Assembly (NCBI GenBank): GCA_014238785.1
Contig: JABAAL010000011.1
Coordinates: 1 to 64,000, forward strand
Origin: Phycisphaerales bacterium
GTDB taxonomy: Bacteria; Planctomycetota; Phycisphaerae; Phycisphaerales; SM1A02
Length of the DNA: 64,000 nucleotides
Reading direction: 5' to 3'
In this document: positions 25,174 to 28,481 of the stretch, piece by piece
Layout of the letters: each line of letters starts with the position of its first letter
Position numbering within the stretch: the first letter of the stretch is position 1
Translations under genes and position numbers: made by a program
Notes under the pieces: model-generated
Databases searched by the model: none
What the model saw: only the letters and a program-made list of their open reading frames with translations
What the model was told of the DNA's origin: nothing

Positions 25174-27423
25174 GTGACGTATTACACTGCCATGATGATG
25201 GGCACGGAAGCACAATTGACATCGTTAACAGAAGCACAGCAAGAAGCGGTAGCGCACGTGCACGGACCGCTGCTTGTGCTGGCGGGGCCTGGGTCTGGCA
25301 AAACAACAGTTGTTACACAACGTATTGCAAACATGATTGCAAGTGGTATTGCACCATGGAACATACTGGCACTTACATTTACAAATAAAGCGGCGCAAGA
25401 AATGCGCGACCGAGTGCATGCATTACTCGAAGAGAAATCGTTACAAGTTCGCGGGTTGACAGTTTCAACGTTTCACGCATTTTGTGCACGTGTATTGCGT
25501 CAGTGGGGAGATAGAATAATTGGAACTACGTCGTTTACGATTTACGACACAGCGGATCAACGAAGTGCAGTTAAAGCAGCGATACGTGCGTGTGAGTTAA
25601 ATGATTCCAATTGGAAGCCTGCTTCGGTGTTGGCGGCGATTAGTGCTGCAAAAAACAAATTGATTGACGTAGATACTTTTCAAGAAGAAGCATCGGATTT
25701 TTATTCGAAGTCAATTGCAAAAATATATCGAGCGTATGAAAACATTTTGCGAGGAAATGATGCAGTAGACTTTGATGATCTTTTGTTAAAAACGGCGCAA
25801 TTGCTTTTTGGAGATGAAGAAGTGCGCCATCGTTTACAAGAACGATATCAATATCTGATGATAGACGAATACCAAGACACGAATCACACGCAATTTGTGA
25901 TCGCGGATAGTATTTCAAAAAACCACAGGAATATCTGTGTCGTTGGAGATCCTGACCAATCTATTTACGCGTGGAGAGGTGCTGACATTGCGAATATTCT
26001 TGACTTTGAAGAACAATACAGTGACGCAACAATCGTTCCTTTAGGCAGAAACTTTCGCTCAACGGGGCACATTGTCAATACATCTGCGCTATTGATAGAA
26101 CATAACAACCAACGTAAAGAGAAAAAACTATACACCGAACTCCATGACGGCAATATGCCCGCCGTTCTATCGCTAGAAGGAGAGCACGAAGAGGCGGAAG
26201 CGATTGTTCGAGAAGTTGTAAAGCTTCGAGAGGAGGAAGTGCTTCTTAAGGAGATGGCAGTGCTCTATCGAGTCAACGCACTGAGCCGTGTACTTGAAGA
26301 TGCGTTTCGAAACGAGGGTGTGCCATATGTCGTAGCAAGAGGCACAGCGTTTTATGCTCGTCAAGAAATTAAGCAAGCGCTTTCTTACTTGCGACTACTT
26401 GTAAACCCACGGGATGATATTGCATTTGTTCGAATCATAAATACTCCAACTCGAGGTATTGGTGCGACATCGATTTCTCGACTCGAGCAACTCGCAAGAA
26501 ATCATGGACTGCCGATGTTGGAGGCGATTTCACTCGTATCAAAAGAACAGGGATTTACTGCCCGATCTGTGACATCGATGAAAAAGTTTGCTGCAACGTT
26601 TGAACAGTGGCAAATCGATGGACGCTCGGATGAAAGTTTGACTGCAGCGGGTTCGCTGGCGGATTTAGTTGAGCGTGTAGTACGGGAATCTGGACTTGAA
26701 GAGTTTTATACTAAACATGCTGGCGAAGATGATTTGGAACGCTTACAAAACTTGGAAGAACTTGTTTCTGCTGCAGCAGATTTTGAGGAGAGAGCCGAGT
26801 CTGAAGAAGAGGCACCTCCCACGCCTTTGCATGTACTTTTTTCATTTTTAGAACATGTGACTCTAGTGAGTGATGCTGATGCAGTTGATCCAAAGAATGG
26901 TGCAGTGACACTGATGACCTTGCATGCAGCAAAAGGCTTGGAATTTGATTTTGTTGCAATTGCAGGTCTTGAAGAAGGCGTATTGCCACATGAACGTTCG
27001 CTCTATGAAAATAATCAGATGGAGGAAGAACGGCGACTTTGTTATGTTGGCATTACGCGCGCGAGGAAACATCTTTTGCTCACCAACGCAAGAAGAAGAA
27101 CGCAGCGTGGTCTAAGTAACCGTACTATGGCAAGTCGATTTATTCGTGAAATGGCTGGCGGTAGTGGGGAATCTGTCACTTTGCATGAAGAGGTAGCAGC
27201 AGACAACTGGGAAGTGCCAAGCCAGGAAGATGTCTACCAAGATGAAATTACGGTTGGTACTATTGTTCGTCATAAACGATTTGGTCTTGGAAAAGTGCAG
27301 CGCATCATCAGGCGAACACGTGGTTCTACCGTAACGGTGCAGTTTCATGGAGGTGTAAAGCACCTTGTCTTGGAATATGCAAATCTAGAAATTGTCCCTC
27401 CGGGCATTTCTCCTGATTTTTAA
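25174..27423 (+). CDS. pcrA: UvrD/PcrA-type ATP-dependent DNA helicase
   Basis: The 749-residue protein is a superfamily 1A 3'-5' helicase used in nucleotide excision repair, mismatch repair and replication-conflict clearance. It has the Q motif (LTEAQQEAVAH), Walker A GPGSGKT (38-44), motif Ia TFTNKAA, motif II IDEYQDTN, motif III GDPDQSIYAWRGA, motif IV GRNFRST, motif V TLMTLHAAKGLEFDFV, and motif VI RRLCYVGITRAR. A C-terminal Tudor-like segment (GTIVRHKRFGLGKV) is typical of PcrA. The start is uncertain: GTG at 25174 or one of the ATGs at 25192-25198, none with a clear Shine-Dalgarno site. The symbol could equally be uvrD. Confidence 0.93.
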   Translation: MTYYTAMMMGTEAQLTSLTEAQQEAVAHVHGPLLVLAGPGSGKTTVVTQRIANMIASGIAPWNILALTFTNKAAQEMRDRVHALLEEKSLQVRGLTVSTFHAFCARVLRQWGDRIIGTTSFTIYDTADQRSAVKAAIRACELNDSNWKPASVLAAISAAKNKLIDVDTFQEEASDFYSKSIAKIYRAYENILRGNDAVDFDDLLLKTAQLLFGDEEVRHRLQERYQYLMIDEYQDTNHTQFVIADSISKNHRNICVVGDPDQSIYAWRGADIANILDFEEQYSDATIVPLGRNFRSTGHIVNTSALLIEHNNQRKEKKLYTELHDGNMPAVLSLEGEHEEAEAIVREVVKLREEEVLLKEMAVLYRVNALSRVLEDAFRNEGVPYVVARGTAFYARQEIKQALSYLRLLVNPRDDIAFVRIINTPTRGIGATSISRLEQLARNHGLPMLEAISLVSKEQGFTARSVTSMKKFAATFEQWQIDGRSDESLTAAGSLADLVERVVRESGLEEFYTKHAGEDDLERLQNLEELVSAAADFEERAESEEEAPPTPLHVLFSFLEHVTLVSDADAVDPKNGAVTLMTLHAAKGLEFDFVAIAGLEEGVLPHERSLYENNQMEEERRLCYVGITRARKHLLLTNARRRTQRGLSNRTMASRFIREMAGGSGESVTLHEEVAADNWEVPSQEDVYQDEITVGTIVRHKRFGLGKVQRIIRRTRGSTVTVQFHGGVKHLVLEYANLEIVPPGISPDF

Positions 27424-27428
27424 TTCTT

Positions 27429-28481
27429 ATGCTTGATTCAAAGAGTGTTGTTGACTTGTGCATTTCGAAGGGATTCGCATTAGCTGGAGTTACCACTGCG
27501 AGCCATTCGTCGCATGACGCTGTGTTGCGCAAGTGGCTTAAGGATGAAAAACATGGAGAGATGGAGTGGTTAAATAGAAATGTAGATGTACGGCTTGATC
27601 CTCGAAATTTAGTTGAAGGCGCTGCTTCAGTGATTTGCGTTGCAGATCGATACGGGAAGCTAGAAGAGGAACCTCTTTGCGCTAGAGATGGACGGATTGC
27701 ACGCTACGCTAGAGGGCGCGATTACCACAAGGAAATGAAAAAACGGTTGCATAGTATTTCCGATACTCTTAGGGAAGAGTTCCCTGGAGAGCAATTCCGC
27801 GCGTGCGTGGATACCGCGCCCTTGTTAGAAAGAGAATTTGCGCAGCGCGCTGGAATCGGTTCGGTTGGAAAGCACACATTACTAATTGAACAGGGAATTG
27901 GAAGTTGGATGTTGCTTGGGGCGATTGTTACAACGGCGGTTATTTAACAAACGAACTCCTCGATTAAAGAGCAATCGGATCCATGCGCAACGTGCACTCG
28001 CTGCATAGATGCTTGCCCAACAGAGGCAATTACTCCATGGGAAGTAGATGCTCGAAAGTGTATTAGTTATTTGACGATCGAGCACCGGACAGACATAGCT
28101 CCTGAACTGTATCCCAAAATTGGTCGTTGGATTTTTGGGTGCGACATTTGCCAAGAAGTCTGCCCGCATAATCAGCCCAGTGAAATATCTGCTCAGGCAC
28201 AGATTCATAGTTCCTATGCTTCAACTAGGGACTCGCTTGATGTGTTGAAAGTTATGCAGTGGAACGAAGAAGATCGAAGGGAATACTTTCGTGGATCATC
28301 TATGAAACGAGCGAAACTTGGCATGATTCGTCGTAACGCAGTTATTGTTGCTGGAAATATTCTTGCAGACTCACAAGACGAAACACTCGAGGCAGCAATT
28401 ACTTCTATCGCTCAGGATCCATTGGAGGATGCACTTGTATCAGAAGCAGCGCGGATTGTATTGTTACAAGAGCGGGGTTAA
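27429..28481 (+). pseudogene. queG: Epoxyqueuosine reductase QueG interrupted by one in-frame TAA
   Basis: QueG reduces epoxyqueuosine to queuosine in the tRNA anticodon using B12 and two [4Fe-4S] clusters. The first 172 codons hold the N-terminal catalytic part with the family aspartate (D128 in CVDTAPLLERE) and GSVGKHTLLI. Codon 173 is TAA (27945-27947). The same frame then continues without another stop for 177 codons, holding cluster motif CATCTRCIDACP (27984-28019), the second motif CDICQEVCPHN (28140 on) and a HEAT-like tail. Total length, about 350, is normal for QueG. Only this stop breaks it. It is a nonsense mutation, a sequencing error or, less likely, read-through. The gene begins 5 nt after the helicase stop. 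Confidence 0.9.

Follow-up and report, generated by a model that had tools for sequence, protein, structure and literature searches.

A single in-frame TAA in an otherwise normal queG gene of a planctomycete draft genome

The window analysed here is a stretch of 64,000 nucleotides from a Phycisphaerales bacterium (positions 1 to 64,000 of contig JABAAL010000011.1, assembly GCA_014238785.1), and all positions below refer to it. On its forward strand, positions 27429-28481 hold a queG reading frame with one TAA inside it: translation gives 172 codons, the premature TAA at codon 173 (27945-27947), 177 further codons and a terminal TAA at 28479. Over this interval the queG frame contains 2 stops, and the other two forward frames contain 16 and 22. 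Upstream on the same strand, a UvrD/PcrA-like helicase ORF (25174-27423) ends 5 bases short of queG. The genus keeps this gene order, the queG of congeners adjoining the same helicase gene wherever the neighbourhood is visible. The genome itself is a metagenome-assembled draft from the Phycisphaerae, of 1.81 Mb in 47 contigs and 97.27% complete.

QueG is the epoxyqueuosine reductase that carries out the final step in queuosine synthesis. The identity of the interrupted frame as queG is far above chance level. When read through the TAA, the frame scores 291.7 bits against TIGR00276, the QueG equivalog profile, which has a curated cut-off of 200 bits; each half alone falls below that cut-off (149.2 and 134.9 bits), and the two pieces are collinear and complementary on the profile. 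The first half (27429-27944, 172 codons) is the cobalamin-binding region, which matches TIGR00276 positions 7-169 (1.4e-43) and Pfam QueG_DUF1730 (PF08331); at 27720-27728 it carries the DYH motif, which has been implicated in QueG catalysis (PMC4646009). The second half (27948-28478, 177 codons) comprises the double [4Fe-4S] domain and the C-terminal helical region, and matches TIGR00276 positions 176-322 (3.2e-39) and Pfam Fer4_16 (PF13484). Its first [4Fe-4S] motif, CxxCxxCxxxC, lies at 27984-28016, and the remaining cluster cysteines are spread over 28059-28163, as a cysteine at 28059 and a CDICQEVCP motif at 28140-28163.

The locus is thus like QueG, as represented by TIGR00276 and the solved chains 5d6s and 5d08, in that both halves are collinear with it and the DYH motif and both [4Fe-4S] ligand motifs are present. 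It is unlike QueG in that the frame is not uninterrupted: the TAA stands in the linker that joins the cobalamin region to the ferredoxin region, as placed by alignment to the two solved chains. That linker is 14 codons long, stop included, compared with 10-13 codons in 35 relatives, an excess of about 3 codons over congeners, and nowhere is the local alignment more variable. In the solved QueG, the ferredoxin region begins after the cobalamin region at about residue 182 (PMC4646009). The initial annotation had described a lone TAA at codon 173, a 177-codon continuation with both [4Fe-4S] motifs, and no second lesion; translation and profile matches bear out this description, with no further internal stop in the frame and no other lesion over 350 codons.

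The premature stop is peculiar to this genome among the relatives compared. A queG match was found in 60 of 61 genomes, all 12 congeners included, and in 12/12 congeners the gene is uninterrupted. Two other genes were flagged among the 61 genomes; the stop of one coincides with the extreme end of its match, that of the other falls outside the aligned part, and the present TAA is left as the sole internal queG stop in the 60 matching genomes. The closest congeners share about 70% protein identity in queG. The nearest named locus belongs to a Planctomycetota MAG (75% identity over the N half), and all named relatives found are MAGs of Phycisphaerae or Planctomycetota.

To place the stop against a wider base rate, a sample of 397 genomes of the class was searched, and those of the best queG matches listed that were flagged with a stop were inspected. 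Among the matches listed, nearly all inspected stops lie at or past the normal gene end. Two genes have a true internal stop, in each case a single TAG outside the linker after which the frame continues normally: L104 (G145:C628:4800-6600), with the TAG at match position 84/310, and L108 (G188:C151:6700-8600), at match position 231/305. Both are in fragmented assemblies and come from one family. A lone stop in a draft-genome queG is uncommon, then, but not unique. A recurrent linker stop across the class is rejected, as the two internal TAGs sit elsewhere and the other inspected stops are nearly all terminal.

The genome also carries tgt and queA, neither of them interrupted, and a search of the genus (13 genomes) gave no QueH, the reductase that can take the place of QueG; because of this combination, queG looks non-redundant in the genome, as judged from gene content. 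No second queG was detected by profile match in the 97.27%-complete draft. With neither a second queG nor a detectable QueH, no replacement enzyme accounts for the loss.

The part of the gene beyond the stop is undecayed. Downstream of the TAA, 34/34 family-conserved and 55/56 genus-invariant residues are kept, and codon-position differences show the usual third-position excess, the same as in intact pairs. The terminal branch of the C half is 2.57 times as long as that of the N half, a ratio inside the range of the relatives (0.6-2.7, one relative with a zero-length N branch being left out). When neutral substitution of the C half was simulated at 0.02 substitutions per site, 14% of runs kept all conserved residues and gained no new stop; the share was 6% at 0.03, 3% at 0.04 and zero at 0.1. 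If the C half is untranslated, the age of the stop is at most about 0.03-0.04 substitutions per site. The stop would then be young, because neutral decay fits only below this level, compared with about 0.6 of third positions that differ from the nearest relative. The undecayed C half also fits with a sequence error or with continued translation. An old pseudogene, with several lesions and relaxed constraint, is excluded by the single lesion, by the retained downstream residues and by relatives that are uninterrupted at the position of the TAA. The same observations dispose of the plain-pseudogene alternative raised by the initial annotation, in which relatives would carry many lesions: they are intact at the site, and queG has no further lesion here.

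We consider that the locus is probably an otherwise normal queG that has recently acquired a nonsense mutation. In this scenario, a single premature TAA arose in the linker between the cobalamin and Fe-S regions, and translation would end at codon 173. The truncated product would retain the cobalamin region but neither the C-terminal helical domain nor any [4Fe-4S] ligand, and should thus be incapable of epoxyqueuosine reduction. If the allele is real, the strain would make epoxyQ-tRNA rather than Q-tRNA. We infer both that the TAA is real and effective and that it has this biochemical consequence. Because the downstream half is undecayed, the mutation would be very recent, or the allele would be one variant in the population. 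The locus resembles young bacterial pseudogenes in its single stop, the lack of any other lesion, the downstream coding constraint and the uninterrupted orthologues in relatives; it differs from them in being known from one consensus, so that the real or fixed status of the mutation is presumed. Clean internal stops in other queG genes of the class also count for a fresh allele, as do the frequent use of TAA as terminator and the lack of a second comparable split frame in the part of the genome surveyed (see below). Against it, a random nonsense mutation would hit the linker only about 4% of the time (14/350 codons), although this is a post hoc argument. The stop's place in the linker, where any inserted residue would be tolerated, speaks mildly for tolerated read-through or for a local indel. 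The retention of tgt and queA also counts against a fresh allele, though it is expected if the loss is new.

It is quite possible, if short of probable, that the TAA is absent from the organism or from most of its population, being a base-call or assembly error or the allele of a minority strain, and that QueG is made normally. The 47-contig draft, the exclusively metagenomic origin of the named relatives and the fragmented assemblies that hold the two other lone queG stops of the class are consistent with this explanation. So are the undiminished downstream constraint and the intact tgt and queA with no QueH found, all of which would be expected of a working gene. Against an error, consensus substitution errors at normal depth are rare, and a survey of 417 genes, covering about 460 kb of the assembly, found no other comparable stop-split frame. 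Other split frames flagged in the same 460 kb are overlapped by other genes or have a gene start within 50 bases. A scan for split genes by codon usage proved weak, queG itself falling outside its top ranks. The same survey bears on the genetic code: TAA terminates 113/207 long ORFs in the 460 kb and is the commonest stop, so that a genome-wide reassignment of TAA to sense is rejected, there being no other comparable split frame in that stretch.

Leaky termination, in which the TAA is sometimes read as sense, so that a small amount of full-length QueG is made beside a truncated product with the cobalamin domain, appears improbable to us. The fully constrained second half, the position of the stop in a variable linker, the apparent non-redundancy of queG and the CAA directly after the stop would all suit such a mechanism. 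Among the 60 relatives with queG, however, only this genome has the stop, which 0/12 congeners share; TAA is the genome's commonest stop codon; and the stop could simply be young. The full leaky motif is STOP-CAR-YYA, and the context here is TAA CAA ACG, which lacks it because the codon after CAA is ACG; the initial annotation had stated as much. Nor does the RNA around or after the TAA fold into stimulatory structure any better than shuffled sequences (fold z-scores -0.42, -0.71 and +0.22). No stop anticodon was found among the 34 tRNAs listed by ARAGORN, a set that is incomplete because obligatory species such as tRNA-Gly are absent from it. The search either overlooked the missing tRNAs, or their genes are not on the assembled contigs. 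Where bacterial read-through has been quantified, P. putida gave 0.01% at UAG and 0.08% at UGA, and E. coli about 12% at UGA, in a dataset that did not extend to UAA (PMC9481147). Read-through of the queG TAA is possible, but unsupported. Of the three explanations offered by the initial annotation, a fresh nonsense mutation and a base-call error both survive, with relatives intact and no extra lesions, whereas read-through lacks positive evidence. Still less do we expect that this planctomycete tunes QueG through a leaky UAA in the linker, with a cobalamin-domain-only product accompanied by a little full-length enzyme.

The position of the stop at the boundary of two regions also brings to mind a split enzyme, whose halves would be made separately, the second by restart past the TAA, and would then associate. 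We find this hardly credible. The first canonical in-frame start past the stop, a TTG at 28071-28073 on the forward strand, comes after both the first cluster motif and the cysteine at 28059, so that a restart there would lose that motif. Upstream of the ATT at 27963, a start codon of a rare type, nothing resembles a Shine-Dalgarno sequence. Restart is thus unlikely to yield a second half that has every cluster ligand. In addition, the regions of the solved QueG are in extensive contact, with no sign of separable domains (PMC4646009).

Overall, the finding is an ordinary one. If the stop is real, queuosine synthesis would halt at the epoxy stage with tgt and queA kept, and the strain would be a naturally occurring queG mutant among planctomycete congeners that all retain the gene, a small point of tRNA-modification ecology. 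Should the stop be an error, the case shows once more why a lone stop in a metagenome-assembled gene needs to be checked against reads. In either case, nothing new is learned about translation.

Finally, we note some features of the linker itself. Its greater length is absent from the initial annotation, and a small in-frame insertion may have accompanied the stop. Two compensating frameshifts were considered as well and appear unlikely: the +1 frame is open across the linker, but its translation is, by eye, unlike the family. The hexamer TTGTTA (27925-27930) is the exact reverse complement of the TAACAA that includes the stop (27945-27950), and 14 bases separate the two. This pairing may be due to chance, or it may be left over from a templated insertion in the longer linker.
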